Origin: Candidatus Peregrinibacteria bacterium | GTDB taxonomy: Bacteria > Patescibacteriota > Gracilibacteria > UBA1369 > 2-02-FULL-48-14 | Assembly (NCBI GenBank): GCA_018658105.1 | Contig: JABHVW010000008.1 | Span: forward strand, 1 to 64,000 | DNA: 64,000 bases | Direction: 5' to 3' | In this document: in pieces, positions 5,875-18,653 of the stretch | Layout of the letters: the number at the start of each line of letters is the position of its first letter | Position numbering within the stretch: position 1 is the stretch's first letter | Notes under the pieces: generated by a model | Told to the model about the DNA's origin: nothing | Databases searched by the model: none | Seen by the model: the letters and a program-made list of their open reading frames with translations, nothing else | Position numbers and translations under genes: made by a program

Positions 5875-6792
5875 GTGAAACTCACATTGGAAACACAAAT
5901 CATACCCAAAAATGCCACAGTCATTGTGGGAGTTTCTGGCGGACGAGATTCTATGTCGCTTGTACATGCGCTTTTAAAGCAACGCAAAGATCTCACAATT
6001 ATTCCTGCACACCTTAATCATGGGCTGCGAATCGATGCAGATGAAGATGCTGAATTCACTATTGGAATGATGACTCGTTGGGAATTAAACTGCGAACTCT
6101 ACAAACCAAGAGCAGCAAAAGCCGGCAACATTGAAGAATGGGGCCGCGACAAACGTTATGAATTTTTCACAAAATTAGCAAAAAAACACAAAGCCGCAGC
6201 AATATTAACTGCCCACCACCAAGACGACGACTTCGAAAGTATGATGCTCCATTTTCTGCGCGGCACCAGAGTAAAAGGCCTTTCTGGCATGCAATTTCAA
6301 CGCGAAGAAATTGTACGCCCATTGCTTTACACTTCCAGAAATGAAATCGATGAATACGTAGAAAAGCACGAAATCCCATACCGCGAAGACCCAAGCAATG
6401 CAGACGACCGTTTCGCGCGCAATTTCCTAAGAAACAAAATCATACCTGTTTTAAATCATGTATACCCAGAAATGGCTGCAAAATGGCAGGGGCAAAAGGA
6501 ATATTGGCTCGAGCTTCAAGAAATGCTCGAAACATCTGCCGCAGTTTTCCTGCAAGAATTCCTAGACAAAAAAGAGGGCCTTCACCGCGCAGCATACAAA
6601 CAACTCCCCTTCCCAATCCGAGCCACAGTGCTCGAACTCTGGTACAGAGAATCAACAGGCGAAAGAGTGCCAGACAGCACAACCCTACACCGCTGGGACG
6701 AAGCAATAATCACCTTCAACTCACGCAAAAAAACTGAATGGCACAAAAAAACGTTCCTCACCATGAGCAAGGAACGCGCTAAAATTCAATAA
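5875..6792 (+). CDS. tilS: tRNA(Ile)-lysidine synthase
   Basis: TilS uses ATP and lysine to change C34 of the minor tRNA-Ile(CAU) to lysidine, so that it reads AUA. The PP-loop ATP-binding motif SGGRDS is at residues 21-26. Further family signatures are AHHQDD followed by a conserved RGT, and the block around EDPSNADDRFARN.LR that precedes the helical domain. At 305 residues it is short compared with E. coli TilS (about 430) and appears to lack the C-terminal domain, like the compact forms known from some other bacteria. The start is GTG at 5875, fixed by the -10 box 6 nt upstream. It ends 6 bp before a convergent lipoprotein gene. Confidence 0.93.
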   Translation: MKLTLETQIIPKNATVIVGVSGGRDSMSLVHALLKQRKDLTIIPAHLNHGLRIDADEDAEFTIGMMTRWELNCELYKPRAAKAGNIEEWGRDKRYEFFTKLAKKHKAAAILTAHHQDDDFESMMLHFLRGTRVKGLSGMQFQREEIVRPLLYTSRNEIDEYVEKHEIPYREDPSNADDRFARNFLRNKIIPVLNHVYPEMAAKWQGQKEYWLELQEMLETSAAVFLQEFLDKKEGLHRAAYKQLPFPIRATVLELWYRESTGERVPDSTTLHRWDEAIITFNSRKKTEWHKKTFLTMSKERAKIQ

Positions 6793-6798
6793 GAAAAA

Positions 6799-7620
6799 CT
6801 AAAGTCCTGTATCACCTGTGTCTGCAGCAGTATCACCTGTAGGTACAGTAGTTGTTGGACTTGTAATACCTGTAGCACCTGCAGTATCAACAGTATCTGT
6901 AGTTGGCAAAGGACGAGTCACAAAAGAAACATCACCATCTGTATCTTTAAACATGCCAACTGTATTAAAAGTTTCTGCTGTTACAACAAGTTCCTGACAT
7001 CCATCACCAAGTTCATTAGTAAAACAAACAATTGCTGCTTCACCATTATCATCAAATCTTACATCTTCAGATCTACCCGTAACATACAAGTGCCTACCAG
7101 AAACATGAGGAACAAATTCATCTGAAGTCCCTGCACTTTGAGGTTCCTTATCATATACCCAAAGAGGACCCGCTTCAGTTGGAGCAACAGCATTTGGATT
7201 CAAACCAGGTATTGAAACACAATGCAGACGCCCATCTTCAATCAACTCAGCTGGATCAGTAGGTAGAGCAGTAGGTAAAGTGCTCAAATCTAACTGAGCT
7301 TGCAAATGATCAACATTCGGAGTGTCAAAAATAGCAGTATTTGTAATTTCTTCTGGTCTAGATTCTGTCGGACTCATAAAAATCCGCTCATCATCAGAGT
7401 CATCACCAAGCTCATCTTCTGAAAGAAGTCCATCTTTCCAAGCTTGCAAACAAGCAACTGGATCAATTGTTACTGGCTCAGTTAAATTAACAATGGTAAC
7501 TGGTGTAGAAGCACTATCCACCTCATCAATCCCACCATTACCACAACCATCTCCACCACATGCTGCAAGTCCTGCGAAAACGGCAGCTCGACTTAAATTA
7601 TTACTTAGACCCATAACCAT
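6799..7620 (-). CDS. Secreted lipoprotein with Asp/Thr-rich tail
   Basis: I do not recognise the family. The 273-residue product has a lipobox-like LAAC at about 18-21 followed by GGDGCGNGG, so it is probably lipid-anchored and exported. The central part is rich in Asp, Glu, Pro and Thr with two later Cys residues. The last 40 residues are low-complexity and rich in Thr, Asp and Ala (for example TGDTAADTGDTGL). It follows a second lipoprotein gene of similar size, and a third with the same ACGGD start is at 33758-34882. Its promoter lies in the gap between the two genes. Confidence 0.6.
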   Translation of the reverse strand: MVMGLSNNLSRAAVFAGLAACGGDGCGNGGIDEVDSASTPVTIVNLTEPVTIDPVACLQAWKDGLLSEDELGDDSDDERIFMSPTESRPEEITNTAIFDTPNVDHLQAQLDLSTLPTALPTDPAELIEDGRLHCVSIPGLNPNAVAPTEAGPLWVYDKEPQSAGTSDEFVPHVSGRHLYVTGRSEDVRFDDNGEAAIVCFTNELGDGCQELVVTAETFNTVGMFKDTDGDVSFVTRPLPTTDTVDTAGATGITSPTTTVPTGDTAADTGDTGL

Positions 7621-11854: not shown

Positions 11855-12442
11855 ATGCTCGACGAACTCTTAAAAGAGGCCGACCAACTAAAATTAGCTG
11901 GACGCCACGAAGAAGCCATAGCGCTTTCAAACAAAATGCTAATAAGCGACCTAGACTTCATCGAAGCCTACGAAGAAATTGGAGACAATTATCTTAGTAT
12001 GCGCGAGTATGACAAAGCTAAAAAAGCTCTAAAACATGCATTAAAGCTGAATCCTACTAGCCCAAATGCACTTTACCTTCTTGGTTTTCTTTATTCATCA
12101 CTTGGAGATTTCGACCGTTCAATTGAAACGCTAGAAACTGCAAATCGTGTTCAACCTCATCACCCAGAAATTCTGAGATGTCTTGGTTGGTCTGTTTTCC
12201 ACGGTGGAGAACGAAAACGCGGTCTTGTAATTCTTGAAAGAGCAAAAGCAATGGCTCCACAAGATACTCTAATCATTTGTGACCTCGCTGTTTGTTACCT
12301 GAACGACCGTGAATTCGATAGAACAATCGAACTTCTTGATCACGCCCTTCAAATTGACCCAAGCAACGAAAAAGCAAAAGATTGTCTTGAGACAGCCAAA
12401 TTCTTCAAAACAGAATTCAGCAAACTTAAGAAGAGCAAGTAA
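11855..12442 (+). CDS. Tetratricopeptide repeat protein
   Basis: A 195-residue protein built almost wholly of TPR helices, about five repeats starting near residues 4, 37, 71, 105 and 140. The typical spacing of small and large hydrophobic residues is clear, for example in the repeat containing ALYLLGFLYSSLGDFDRSIE. There is no signal peptide or membrane segment, so it is cytoplasmic. TPR proteins act as protein-binding scaffolds; no partner can be named. It is transcribed alone from a near-consensus promoter. Confidence 0.85.
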   Translation: MLDELLKEADQLKLAGRHEEAIALSNKMLISDLDFIEAYEEIGDNYLSMREYDKAKKALKHALKLNPTSPNALYLLGFLYSSLGDFDRSIETLETANRVQPHHPEILRCLGWSVFHGGERKRGLVILERAKAMAPQDTLIICDLAVCYLNDREFDRTIELLDHALQIDPSNEKAKDCLETAKFFKTEFSKLKKSK

Positions 12443-12476
12443 AACCTTGACATAAGCCAGGTTAATGGGAACCTTA

Positions 12477-12504
12477 TTGACAACTTATGCCGACAGGGTA
12501 TAGA
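12477..12504 (+). promoter_or_regulatory. Promoter upstream of the structured RNA segment
   Basis: TTGACA (12477-12482), 16 bp, TATAGA (12499-12504); an alternative -10, TAGAGT, lies 2 bp further on with an 18-bp spacer. A second isolated TTGACA is at 12447-12452 without a convincing -10. Transcription would begin near 12511. Confidence 0.5.
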
Positions 12505-12510
12505 GTATTT

Positions 12511-12667
12511 TTGCTTTAGAAAAATTATGATTAATTCAAACATTATTATTTCTCTCCTCCCACAAGCCACGACGGTCGTGTGCTTTAAGGTCGAGCGAGC
12601 ATAGTGTTTAATTCTAAACAATTTTACCCACTATAAAAGCTCGCCGCATAGCGAGTATTTTTTTATT
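12511..12667 (+). ncRNA. Structured leader or small RNA with attenuator-like folding
   Basis: No coding frame fits here. Reading from the promoter, there is first a hairpin at 12564-12585 (AAGC-CACGA, loop CGG, TCGTG-T-GCTT). Then GCGAGC-ATAGTG (12595-12606) can pair with CACTAT-AAAA-GCTCGC (12629-12644), enclosing a small TTTA/TAAA hairpin. The GCTCGC arm is also the 5' arm of the terminator at 12639-12667. The two pairings exclude each other, which is the layout of an attenuator or riboswitch. It could equally be a free small RNA that ends at the terminator. No known RNA family was recognised. Confidence 0.45.
12639..12667 (+). terminator. Intrinsic terminator ahead of the 84-residue gene
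   Basis: Stem GCTCGC (12639-12644) with GCGAGT (12651-12656), six-base loop CGCATA, followed by ATTTTTTTATT. It lies between the structured RNA and the small gene, so it could control read-through into that gene. Confidence 0.65.
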
Positions 12668-12682
12668 CTAACCCCCAATAAT

Positions 12683-12937
12683 ATGCCAGAATGTAATGAA
12701 GACGATATATGGGCAGCAAATCCATGTATAACTCTGAAACGTAATCCGGATGGAACACCTGAAATTGATCTAGGCCTAGCTGCCGAACAATTGAATACTG
12801 CAAAAGAAGATTTAACAAATGCATATCCCCAATCTGCAGAATTATTTGCAGCATGTGAAAATCTAGAAGGGCTATTAACCGTAATCCCAAAAAGAGCGGA
12901 AACAAGCAATGCGGTAGAACATACCCTTCAAGCTTGA
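12683..12937 (+). CDS. Small acidic protein of unknown function
   Basis: An 84-residue, acidic, probably cytoplasmic protein with three Cys residues (about 4, 15 and 58) and two probable helices in the second half. I do not recognise a family. It lies 15 bp after a terminator that may be regulated, with no Shine-Dalgarno sequence before the ATG. The TGA stop sits inside the -35 box of the RNase P RNA gene. Antisense frames in this stretch are of similar length, so the coding call rests on the compact placement and normal composition. Confidence 0.5.
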   Translation: MPECNEDDIWAANPCITLKRNPDGTPEIDLGLAAEQLNTAKEDLTNAYPQSAELFAACENLEGLLTVIPKRAETSNAVEHTLQA

Positions 12938-12961
12938 CACACTACAAATTCCCCGTACAAT
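12934..12961 (+). promoter_or_regulatory. Promoter of the RNase P RNA gene
   Basis: TTGACA (12934-12939), 16 bp, TACAAT (12956-12961); start point expected near 12968, which is where the first helix of the RNA begins. The -35 box contains the stop codon of the upstream small gene. Confidence 0.75.
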
Positions 12962-12967
12962 AAGTTA

Positions 12968-13310
12968 AAGCTCCTGAGTGATCGCATCCATTGGTTTTAA
13001 ACCCAGAGGATGAGGAAAGTCCGAGCAACATTGCCAGGAAGGTCGCTAACGGCGACCGTAGCCCGATCTAAAAAACGGGCTATAGGGAAAGTGCCGCAGA
13101 GACGACTAATGTGAAACGCCCCCTCTGCATATGGGGCGCCCCATCGTGAGGTGGATGGCGTGGTAAACCCCTTCTGTTGCAAGGTGAGGATGGAGATTGG
13201 GAATTAGAGCCGGCATGCTCCCCTTTCGCTCACCGCTGGAGCCACGCAGCAATGCGCGGCCAAGAGAGATGATCACCTAGACAGAACTCGGCTTATGAGG
13301 GAGCTTTTTT
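12968..13310 (+). ncRNA. rnpB: RNase P RNA
   Basis: The catalytic RNA of RNase P, which trims the 5' ends of tRNA precursors. The universal conserved blocks are present: GAGGAAAGTCCG near 13011-13022 (5' strand of helix P4 region) and ACAGAACTCGGCTTAT at 13281-13296 (3' strand). AAGCTCC at 12968-12974 pairs with GGAGCTT at 13300-13306 to close helix P1. Other landmarks are the GGGAAAGTGCC and GTGAGG segments typical of bacterial type A-like RNAs. The length of about 340 nt is normal. The final T-run acts as terminator. The protein partner rnpA is at 40078-40416. Confidence 0.95.
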
Positions 13311-13312
13311 AA
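13300..13312 (+). terminator. 3' end of rnpB: helix P1 strand and T-run
   Basis: The 3' strand of helix P1 (GGAGCTT) runs straight into a T-tract followed by AAAA, so the closing helix of the RNA probably doubles as its terminator. Confidence 0.5.
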
Positions 13313-15465: not shown

Positions 15466-18018
15466 ATGCCAATAAAGAAAATTATAGAGAGGCTCGTAGG
15501 AAGCCCACAAAAAAAAGACCTCAAAAGAATCGATAAACTCGTCGAAGAAATTAATGTAATTGAAGCACGATATCAACTCGATCTTAATGATGAAGAAATT
15601 GAAAGAAAAACTGCAGAATTTAGAGATCGTTATCAAAATGGCGAAACCCTAGAAGAGCTTCTGCCAGAGGCTTTTGCCCTAGTAAAATTTGCTTGCCGCC
15701 GTCTAGTTGGAAAAAGCTGGAAAGTCCGCGACGAAGATTACACTTGGGACATGGTTCCATACGACGTACAACTCGTTGGTGGAGTTATAATCCATGAAGG
15801 TAAAATCGCCGAAATGAAAACGGGTGAAGGTAAAACTCTCGCCTGTACTATGCCAGTTTATCTAAACGCAATTTCCGGCAAAGGTGTCCACCTTGTAACT
15901 GTAAATGAATACCTGGCAACTCGTGATGCAGAATGGATGGGCGGACTTTATCGCTTCTTGGGTCTTAGTGTTGGAGTCATCAAACACGGCGACAACCCTA
16001 CTGAAAAACGCGAAGCATATGAGGCAGATATCACTTACGGTACCAACAACGAATTCGGCTTCGACTACCTCCGCGACAACATGGCACAAACCAAAGAACA
16101 TCAAGTTCAACGCGGCCTTCATTACGCAATTATTGATGAAGTTGATTCAATCCTGATCGACGAAGCTCGAACTCCACTTATCATCTCGGCCCCTGCCGAA
16201 GAATCGACAGAAAAATACACACAATATTCTAAACTCGTTCAGGGCTTACAAGAAAATACTCACTACAATATCGACGAAAAACAAAAGGTAGCAACCCTAA
16301 ATGAAGATGGTATTTCACAGATGGAAACGCTACTTGGAGTAGACAACATTTACACAGAAAAAGGCTTCGAAGAAGTTCATCATATTGAGCAAGCTTTAAG
16401 AGCCCACGCTATTTATAAAAAAGACATAGACTACGTAATCAAAGACGATCAAATTATGATTGTAGATGAGTTCACAGGCCGCTTAATGGCAGGCCGACGT
16501 TTTGGCCAAGGTTTGCATCAAGCAATCGAAGCAAAAGAGTTAGTAGAAATCCGCCGCGAAAGCAAAACCCTCGCAACAATCACTTTTCAAAATTACTTCC
16601 GAATGTTCGAAAAGCTCGCGGGCATGACAGGTACTGCAATCACTGAGGAAGAAGAATTCGCAAGCATTTACGGCTTAAATACAGTTATTATTCCAACTCA
16701 CAGACCAATTGCTCGTAACGATAGACCCGATGCAATTTACAAAAATATATCTGGCAAATTCAAGGCAATCGCCGAAAAAACCAAAGAGCTGCATGACAAA
16801 GGCCAACCAGTTCTTATAGGAACAATTTCCGTAGAAAAATCTGAAACTCTATCTGCCCTTTTAAAGGCGCGCGGCATTCCACACAATGTTTTGAATGCAA
16901 AACATCACGAAAGAGAGGCCGAAATCGTAGCAAATGCTGGGCACAAAGGCGGAGTTACAATCGCAACAAATATGGCCGGTCGTGGTACCGATATCAAAAT
17001 TAAAGATGACGTAAAAGAGCTCGGCGGTCTTTACGTAATAGGAAGCGAACGACACGAATCTCGTCGAATCGATAATCAGCTCCGTGGTCGTTCTGGCCGT
17101 CAAGGTGACCCAGGCCACACACAATTTTATGTTTCAATGGAAGACGATCTAATGCGAATTTTTGGCGGTAGCCGCATGCAAGCAGCAATGGAAAAACTCG
17201 GTCTACCAGATGACATGCCTATAGAAAATCGCATGATTAGTGGCTCAATTGAAAGCGCTCAAAAAAAGGTTGAAGGGCGAAACTTCGATGTTCGTAAGCA
17301 CCTCGTAAAATACGATGATGTAATAAACACTCACCGAGAAATCATCTACAAACGTCGCCAAGAAATGCTGGATCAAGAAAATCTTAAAAACAAAGCACTC
17401 CTACTCATCGACCAAGAAGCTGAACAAATTGTACTAAGCCATCCTGAAGATCTTAAAGAAGTGTACGAAACAGTTTCTGCAATTCACAAAGACTCAAGTG
17501 CACCTCTTGCACTGCAAACTCTTGAAGGGCTCGAGCAAGAAACGCTGATCAAAACAATCAAAGATTATTTATATGAACAATACGAAGAAAAAGAAAAATC
17601 TCTACCCGAAGAATCAGTAATGCGAAAAGCCGAGCGCTACATAATGTTAAGAGTTATAGACATGAATTGGATGAATCACATCAATGCGCTCAAAGGCATT
17701 CGTGAAGCAGTTTCACTCAGTGGATACGGCCAACGCGACCCGCTCATTGAATACAAAAACGCAGCATTCCTCAGCTTTGAAGAAATGATTGCTCAAATTG
17801 ATCACAACATTGTGAGATCTCTTTTCCATGTGAAAATAAATGTGCAAGCTCCACAACCAGCACCAAAACAAGTCACAAGGACCAATGAAGACACAATTAG
17901 CCAATCAATCACAGATGGCAACAAAACCAGCGAAGACAAAATTAAAATCGGCCGCAACGATCCTTGCCCATGTGGCAGCGGCAAAAAATACAAAAAGTGT
18001 CACGGCAAAGCGGACTAA
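15466..18018 (+). CDS. secA: Preprotein translocase ATPase SecA
   Basis: SecA drives proteins through the SecYEG channel. The 850-residue product is full length. The first DEAD-like nucleotide-binding fold contains the Walker A-like motif MKTGEGKT (about residues 106-113) and DEVDSILIDEA. The preprotein cross-linking domain and the second fold (NMAGRGTDI, then RIDNQLRGRSGRQGDPG) follow. The C-terminal SEC-C zinc motif CPCGSGKKYKKCH is at about 834-846. The stop codon TAA shares two bases with the TAG of the convergent ACT-domain gene (CTAA at 18015-18018). Confidence 0.98.
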   Translation: MPIKKIIERLVGSPQKKDLKRIDKLVEEINVIEARYQLDLNDEEIERKTAEFRDRYQNGETLEELLPEAFALVKFACRRLVGKSWKVRDEDYTWDMVPYDVQLVGGVIIHEGKIAEMKTGEGKTLACTMPVYLNAISGKGVHLVTVNEYLATRDAEWMGGLYRFLGLSVGVIKHGDNPTEKREAYEADITYGTNNEFGFDYLRDNMAQTKEHQVQRGLHYAIIDEVDSILIDEARTPLIISAPAEESTEKYTQYSKLVQGLQENTHYNIDEKQKVATLNEDGISQMETLLGVDNIYTEKGFEEVHHIEQALRAHAIYKKDIDYVIKDDQIMIVDEFTGRLMAGRRFGQGLHQAIEAKELVEIRRESKTLATITFQNYFRMFEKLAGMTGTAITEEEEFASIYGLNTVIIPTHRPIARNDRPDAIYKNISGKFKAIAEKTKELHDKGQPVLIGTISVEKSETLSALLKARGIPHNVLNAKHHEREAEIVANAGHKGGVTIATNMAGRGTDIKIKDDVKELGGLYVIGSERHESRRIDNQLRGRSGRQGDPGHTQFYVSMEDDLMRIFGGSRMQAAMEKLGLPDDMPIENRMISGSIESAQKKVEGRNFDVRKHLVKYDDVINTHREIIYKRRQEMLDQENLKNKALLLIDQEAEQIVLSHPEDLKEVYETVSAIHKDSSAPLALQTLEGLEQETLIKTIKDYLYEQYEEKEKSLPEESVMRKAERYIMLRVIDMNWMNHINALKGIREAVSLSGYGQRDPLIEYKNAAFLSFEEMIAQIDHNIVRSLFHVKINVQAPQPAPKQVTRTNEDTISQSITDGNKTSEDKIKIGRNDPCPCGSGKKYKKCHGKAD

Positions 18019-18653
18019 AAACAGTTTAGTAAAGTATCAAAAGCCAGCTTAGTGTCTTTTTTATGCACATAAACCATAAACACAGTATGAGTTGATGCAA
18101 CCTCAACAACATTTATATGCTGCAAAGTTACCCTTTGCAAAACAGCATGCAAAAAGCCAGGAATTTGGATATATGAATCATCAAACTGCACTGCAATACC
18201 AGAAATATTCTCCACCAAATTCACCGGATCAACTTCAATAAAATTCTTCATCTCATCAATATATTTAGCCTCAGCAATAATCGTAATTTCCTTTCCACTA
18301 TCAGTCACCGTAACAAAAGACCCTTCCCGGTTCAAAAATTCGTAAAAGTCATTTGCCTCCTTATGCACACTCGGCGTTTTACTGAAGCTCGCAGTGAACA
18401 AATTCCCATGCACAGTCAAAGTTTTAATTTTAAAATCAGAATTAAACTGCCCCTGTTTTAAAAGCCCACGTTGATAACGGGATAAATTCATCACAATCGC
18501 ACTCACCTTAATTTTCTTTTTAAGTCGAGTTTCAAGCAATGGCTGCAAAAAAAACGCCAGTTGAGTCAAATTAAAAAGCTTGTAAGAAAGCCCCACTTTT
18601 ACAAAATGATTCTCCTCCACCAGCTCCTGCAAAACATTAGAAATCTTCTTCAT
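18015..18653 (-). CDS. ACT-domain protein with N-terminal HTH-like region (putative amino-acid-responsive regulator)
   Basis: A 212-residue protein. The N-terminal 70 residues (LFNLTQLAFFLQPLLE followed by AIVMNLSRY) resemble a short helical region found in front of ACT domains in some archaeal and CPR proteins. The C-terminal half (about 110-210) looks like paired ACT folds; IPGFLHAVLQRVTLQHINVVEV matches the part of aspartokinase ACT domains that holds the effector. ACT domains bind amino acids such as lysine. The divergent gene is a kinase domain without ACT domains, so this may be its detached regulatory part or a transcription factor. A perfect 22-bp palindrome covers its start codon. 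The functional link is inference. Confidence 0.55.
   Translation of the reverse strand: MKKISNVLQELVEENHFVKVGLSYKLFNLTQLAFFLQPLLETRLKKKIKVSAIVMNLSRYQRGLLKQGQFNSDFKIKTLTVHGNLFTASFSKTPSVHKEANDFYEFLNREGSFVTVTDSGKEITIIAEAKYIDEMKNFIEVDPVNLVENISGIAVQFDDSYIQIPGFLHAVLQRVTLQHINVVEVASTHTVFMVYVHKKDTKLAFDTLLNCF

Follow-up and report, generated by a model that had tools for sequence, protein, structure and literature searches.

A probable leader-peptide transcription attenuator ahead of an orphan gene and rnpB in a member of the Patescibacteria

Introduction

An RNA element that precedes an 84-codon gene in an ultrasmall bacterium of the Patescibacteria (Candidate Phyla Radiation, CPR) is probably a classical ribosome-mediated, or leader-peptide, transcription attenuator. 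The four-strand plan of the element is that of the trp, thr and phe attenuators. It lies in a window of 64,000 nucleotides, the whole stretch of DNA analysed here, which belongs to a genome of 1.12 Mb (G000); the five relatives of the same family are MAGs under the names Peribacteria, Peregrinibacteria or Gracilibacteria.

According to a 2010 survey, which itself extended leader-peptide attenuation to the Firmicutes, such systems had until then been demonstrated in Proteobacteria and Actinobacteria alone (PMC2965389). The literature that we searched contained no report of it in Patescibacteria/CPR; papers beyond it may do so. The kind of device is already known. Since the Patescibacteria have been described as devoid of pathways for amino-acid synthesis (PMC11665869), amino-acid attenuators are notable here. 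Their presence suggests that such cells sense the supply of single amino acids through their ribosomes. Regulation in Patescibacteria/CPR is otherwise almost unknown, and attenuators allow genes under starvation control to be read off, among them orphans that offer no other clue to function.

Results

Four competing strands and a leader ORF

Computational folding of the element yields four strands with exclusive pairings (Table 1), in which either strand 1 pairs with 2 and strand 3 with 4, or else strand 2 pairs with 3. The 2:3 pairing, an antiterminator, joins GCGAGC-ATAGTG (12595-12606) to CACTAT-AAAA-GCTCGC (12629-12644) at -13.6 kcal/mol. The terminator joins GCTCGC (12639-12644) to GCGAGT (12651-12656) at -7.9 kcal/mol and is followed by seven T. 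An earlier note on this DNA had proposed these two mutually exclusive stems, the T-run terminator and a separate upstream hairpin, all of which the folding bears out. It had overlooked a third pairing, between 12538-12546 and 12601-12609, that sequesters strand 2 in the MFE fold without a ribosome. The domain that this pairing closes (12537-12609) has a folding energy of -23.9 kcal/mol, and the element as a whole is more stable than its shuffles (z -3.3 to -3.7).

Also overlooked was a short ORF between the promoter and the terminator, whose ATG at 12527 lies about 14 nt 3' of the predicted transcription start. This ORF spans strand 1 and the hairpin in which the note had supposed a ligand or protein to bind, and it stops within strand 2. 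The promoter is placed correctly, as the note had said; it is argued from this placement, because promoter-like sites are no more numerous in the region than expected by chance.

The predicted leader peptide contains the repeats III, LL, TT and VV, giving five places where neighbouring residues are identical (permutation p 0.003); among ordinary protein windows of 24 residues in G000, 2.2% reach as many. Two observations weigh against a leader of the classical type: Ile, Leu and Val make up 9 of 24 residues (p 0.1), so that enrichment for a single amino acid is not strong, and codon statistics are uninformative for the ORF. The missing Shine-Dalgarno sequence is no objection, since only 15 of 414 long ORFs in this genome have one in place, compared with 45 of 414 in a control window; such sequences are rarer before starts.

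Table 1. Positions of the features of the element, its surroundings and the sibling devices
Feature	Position	Strand	Basis or remark
Sigma-70-type promoter TTGACA-18-TAGAGT	12477..12506	+	consensus scan, 10/12 matches; transcription start expected near 12513
Leader ORF, 25 codons + TAG: MINSNIIISLLPQATTVVCFKVERA	12527..12604	+	translation of sequence
Strand 1 (protector, 5' side)	12538..12563	+	MFE fold; 12538-12546 pairs with 12601-12609
Hairpin AAGCCACGA-CGG-UCGUGUGCUU	12564..12585	+	encodes leader residues Q-A-T-T-V-V-C-F
Strand 2 (antiterminator 5' side)	12591..12606	+	leader ORF ends here, with TAG 12602-12604
Strand 3 (3' side of antiterminator, 5' arm of terminator)	12629..12644	+	
Intrinsic terminator GCTCGC-CGCATA-GCGAGT + A + T7	12639..12664	+	strand 4 = 12651-12656
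84-codon orphan gene, presumed regulated gene	12683..12937	+	codon usage; no homologue
rnpB promoter TTGACA-16-TACAAT	12934-12961		consensus scan
rnpB (RNase P RNA, class A)	12967..13311	+	Rfam RF00010
Tandem attenuator cassettes MRLNSFFSAFYFFATARR, MKKSKNTYLYFYFTGSRGAF	L099 5376-5830 = L066 1414-1870		G004, upstream of rplJ; Phe-type, then Tyr/Phe-type
Phe- and Tyr-rich leaders before paralogous genes	L128 16863-18000; L087 10074-11250	minus	G000
Leader MSHFSFSNFAWWKELNSFQGDW (tandem Trp) + antiterminator + terminator	L091 ~5935-7105	minus	G000; 345-aa gene behind, ATP-grasp-like by eye
Arg-rich leader MKILINNFLVRRSRLTFKRRRLCA (possible device)	L134 ~16968-18600	minus	G000; before 405-aa gene, ATP-grasp-like by eye

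Ribosome position and the choice of structure

The effect of a translating ribosome was simulated with partition-function folds in which a footprint from -17 to +12 around the A-site was masked at every leader codon; the model assumes equilibrium and leaves the kinetics of transcription out of account. Terminator probability was 0.98 without a ribosome and 0.99 with the ribosome at the stop codon. With any of the codons Ile6 to Thr16 (I-I-I-S-L-L-P-Q-A-T-T) in the A-site it fell to 0.08 or less, and the antiterminator reached as much as 0.89. The two Val codons gave intermediate terminator probabilities of 0.42 and 0.56.

The energy of the antiterminator pairing was equalled in 2 of 2000 dinucleotide shuffles. 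A leader ORF combined with an antiterminator of -20.4 kcal/mol or lower was produced by none of 2000 shuffled upstream sequences. By itself the pairing does not settle the matter: of 141 hairpins resembling terminators in neighbouring sequence, about 9% have an antiterminator-like partner at -15 kcal/mol or below.

These states suggest the following mechanism. RNA polymerase would start near 12513, with a ribosome close behind that translates the leader. A ribosome arriving at the stop codon would cover strand 2, allowing strands 3 and 4 to pair, and transcription would end at about 12664; if no ribosome is loaded, strand 1 would hold strand 2 and the terminator would form as well. A ribosome stalled on Ile-Ile-Ile, Leu-Leu or Thr-Thr, and less clearly on Val-Val, would cover strand 1, so that strands 2 and 3 pair and no terminator forms. 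The 84-codon gene would then be transcribed, and read-through would run on into rnpB. The inducing signal would be a shortage of branched-chain amino acids and/or threonine, as the runs III, LL, TT and VV suggest, or a general stalling of ribosomes; one or the other of these is probably what is sensed.

In its arrangement the element resembles the Thr leader (thrL) and the ilv leader of Proteobacteria, which likewise have a promoter, a short ORF, four competing strands, a stop codon in strand 2 and an intrinsic terminator ahead of the structural gene. Their ORFs carry control codons in tandem, for which the III, LL, TT and VV runs are candidates of ambiguous identity here. It differs from them in sequence, in its mixed run of Ile, Leu, Thr and Val, in its target, which is an orphan protein of 84 aa rather than a biosynthetic operon, and in its host, a member of the Patescibacteria with their described lack of amino-acid synthesis (PMC11665869).

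The same RNA mechanics could serve an upstream ORF that senses translation stress in general, such as an antibiotic or slow ribosomes, rather than one amino acid. The antiterminating window, from Ile6 to Thr16, is wide and mixed (I, S, L, P, Q, A and T), where the sibling devices described below have runs of one residue. This makes a general stalling sensor possible, and a precedent is found in E. coli topAI-yjhQ (PMC12121999). Against this, the III, LL, TT and VV runs resemble the control codons of branched-chain and threonine leaders and the siblings are specific for amino acids; we consider such a general sensor unlikely.

A true riboswitch or protein-dependent attenuator, as suggested in the earlier note, would have a ligand or protein bind 12538-12609, stabilize the 1:2 pairing and favour termination, the ORF being accidental. 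The stable domain at these positions does occupy the place that an aptamer has ahead of an expression platform, and the choice between terminator and antiterminator in a 5' leader is also that of T-box and metabolite riboswitches. The sensor region of the window element, however, is coding, and no T-box or aptamer family matches it. A search of all 4227 Rfam families with E values up to 10 returned only weak unrelated matches, and no homologues were found. The ORF, moreover, stops inside strand 2, as do those of siblings that have FFFF or TTTTTT in the equivalent stretch. The attenuator logic of the note is retained and strengthened, and its ligand or protein sensor at 12564-12585 is not the preferred reading, because this hairpin is coding sequence of a leader ORF with the usual four-strand geometry, which the siblings share. 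We regard a riboswitch here as very improbable. Two further RNA types were also sought: no tandem repeat family, as in a type III toxin-antitoxin (ToxI-like) RNA, is present in 12430-12970, and 6S RNA (RF00013) has no match in the whole genome or the window.

Sibling devices in the same and related genomes

A DNA search of 99 relatives with the RNA element yielded AT-rich chance matches and no homologous sequence, which counts against the attenuator reading of this copy. Going by sequence comparison, the reading of the element as a leader-peptide attenuator draws its support instead from sibling devices, above all from Thr-run leaders of thrS in three families.

About 1.76 Mb, comprising almost the whole of G000, portions of G004 (of the same family), stretches of G002 and the window, was scanned for a leader ORF, antiterminator, terminator and gene in succession. 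At an antiterminator threshold of -20 kcal/mol or below, the scan gave seven hits over 200 terminator-plus-gene sites, against 1.05 expected from shuffles. The hits represent six sites: the window element; MKQTFFFNTEFFFFAAKRG (L128) and MNLFSAAYQYYSYLM (L087) in G000; MRLNSFFSAFYFFATARR and MKKSKNTYLYFYFTGSRGAF in G004; and MHIRLNTTTTTTARRVV (L172) in G002. The tandem-Trp device at L091 scored weakly with a detector confined to the terminator arm; a later version also admits the loop.

In G000 and close relatives, at least five further loci combine the geometry of the window element with leader peptides that bear clear amino-acid runs. In the well-formed siblings the leader stop codon lies inside strand 2, as it does in the window, and the stretch equivalent to the window's sensor region encodes FFFF or TTTTTT. 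It is therefore very probable that this lineage uses leader-peptide attenuation, a device whose anatomy the window element shares.

The Phe device of G004 (L066 1413-1526, from leader start to terminator) had Phe_leader (RF01859, the pheA and pheST attenuators) as its best match among the 4227 Rfam families, with E 0.057 and 31.6 bits, below the gathering score of 55; the window copy is unmatched by this family. In each of the two G004 cassettes an orphan ORF of 53-56 aa begins about 25 nt past the terminator, and these ORFs contain no Phe.

The paralogous genes behind the L128 and L087 leaders weakly resemble glutamate-cysteine ligase family 2 and have homologues in L140, L141 and L142. AlphaFold models of these ligase-like targets are of low confidence (pLDDT 63), and the Foldseek matches to glutamate-cysteine ligase and glutamine synthetase are suggestive at most (E > 0.001). 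In G066 and G045 the family stands beside a gene that by eye resembles class-I glutamine amidotransferases, and in G458 the leader before it is rich in Trp and His (MRAQDFFIIHWWCKLHIWKGHFCW). The G066 leader, with a Phe run, has the 2:3 pairing, yet in simulation it forms a terminator of a strength that leaves no room for switching at equilibrium. The Arg-rich leader at L134 (MKILINNFLVRRSRLTFKRRRLCA) showed no antitermination in folding simulation and is therefore listed as possible only; the 405-aa gene behind it is followed by a gene resembling aspartoacylase and succinylglutamate desuccinylase.

Threonine leaders upstream of thrS

Across 30 genomes of the order, inspection of the thrS upstream regions revealed Thr-run leaders in three families (loci L181, L193 and L201): MHIRLNTTTTTTARRVV, directly upstream of the gene in G002, MKFFATTTTTTTVTPEQV in G039 and MLQIIKTTTTTAIQ in G020. 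The remaining 27 genomes inspected showed no such leader before thrS, which suggests that these leaders have been gained or lost often. The leaders, in which amino acid and synthetase are cognate, share strand architecture and stop-codon placement with the window element and differ from it in having a known target (threonyl-tRNA synthetase) and a pure Thr run. In simulation of the G039 leader, a stall at any Thr of the run brought terminator probability to about 0, and a ribosome at the stop codon gave 0.95. The same scan found no Thr-rich ORF on the opposite strand of the thrS loci, and upstream of rnpB a single one, in L031, where a 370-aa gene lies.

It is conceivable, if on the whole doubtful, that Peribacteria-like Patescibacteria run a network of amino-acid-specific attenuators (Phe, Tyr, Trp, Thr, possibly Arg, and here Ile/Leu/Thr/Val) over tRNA synthetases, enzymes resembling carboxylate-amine ligases and small orphan proteins that evolve fast. 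Its branched-chain/Thr member would be the window element, and the orphan behind it a starvation-induced effector, for example one for taking amino acids from a host cell.

The 84-codon gene and its genomic setting

The earlier note had described a gene of 84 residues and then rnpB downstream of the element, and both are there. The ORF is coding by codon usage, with a log-odds score of 0.335 compared with 0.30 +/- 0.12 for real genes and an off-frame 99th percentile of -0.06. Its protein is an orphan, with no homologue among 59 relatives, 380 genomes spread over the phylum, genome contigs, viral contigs, Pfam, PHROGs or PDB; weak matches in L057, L058 and L060 were discarded, as they fall in reading frames of unrelated genes. 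An orphan without a link to amino-acid metabolism counts against its control by an amino-acid attenuator. The scan detected no terminator between this gene and rnpB, and for this reason read-through would transcribe rnpB too, in addition to the latter's own promoter.

The gene order nucleotidyltransferase - TPR - rnpB is common in the taxonomic order, and within the family of G000 a sugar transferase lies 3' of rnpB. The TPR gene of G001 and that of G003 lie immediately next to rnpB; the attenuator and the 84-codon gene are an insertion observed in G000 alone. TTGACA occurs three times in the window, at 12448, 12477 and 12934, and the first and last copies flank the cassette (AACCTTGACA / AAGCTTGACA); these flanking copies are possibly the trace of a cassette insertion at an old rnpB promoter.

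Having its own promoter and terminator, the element could also be a free-standing small RNA, with the 84-codon gene under another promoter and the alternative stem incidental, and in G002 an element of promoter, hairpin and terminator that does not act as an attenuator in simulation occupies the same TPR-rnpB site (z -5.5). Such a small RNA is extremely unlikely in the window: 12665-12683 contains no convincing promoter, the alternative pairing exceeds chance, and no sRNA family matches.

The G002 element had been considered as a homologue, since both start with AACATTAT and have the same order of hairpin and terminator. In simulation it does not behave like an attenuator, for which reason it is treated as unrelated. 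The strongly folded sequence (L023/L053) has a 10-bp palindrome, AAAACAACCC-TATAGTATGA-GGGTTGTTTT, around its -10 box, followed by a long imperfect hairpin, a second hairpin, a terminator and two orphan ORFs of 126 and 112 aa.
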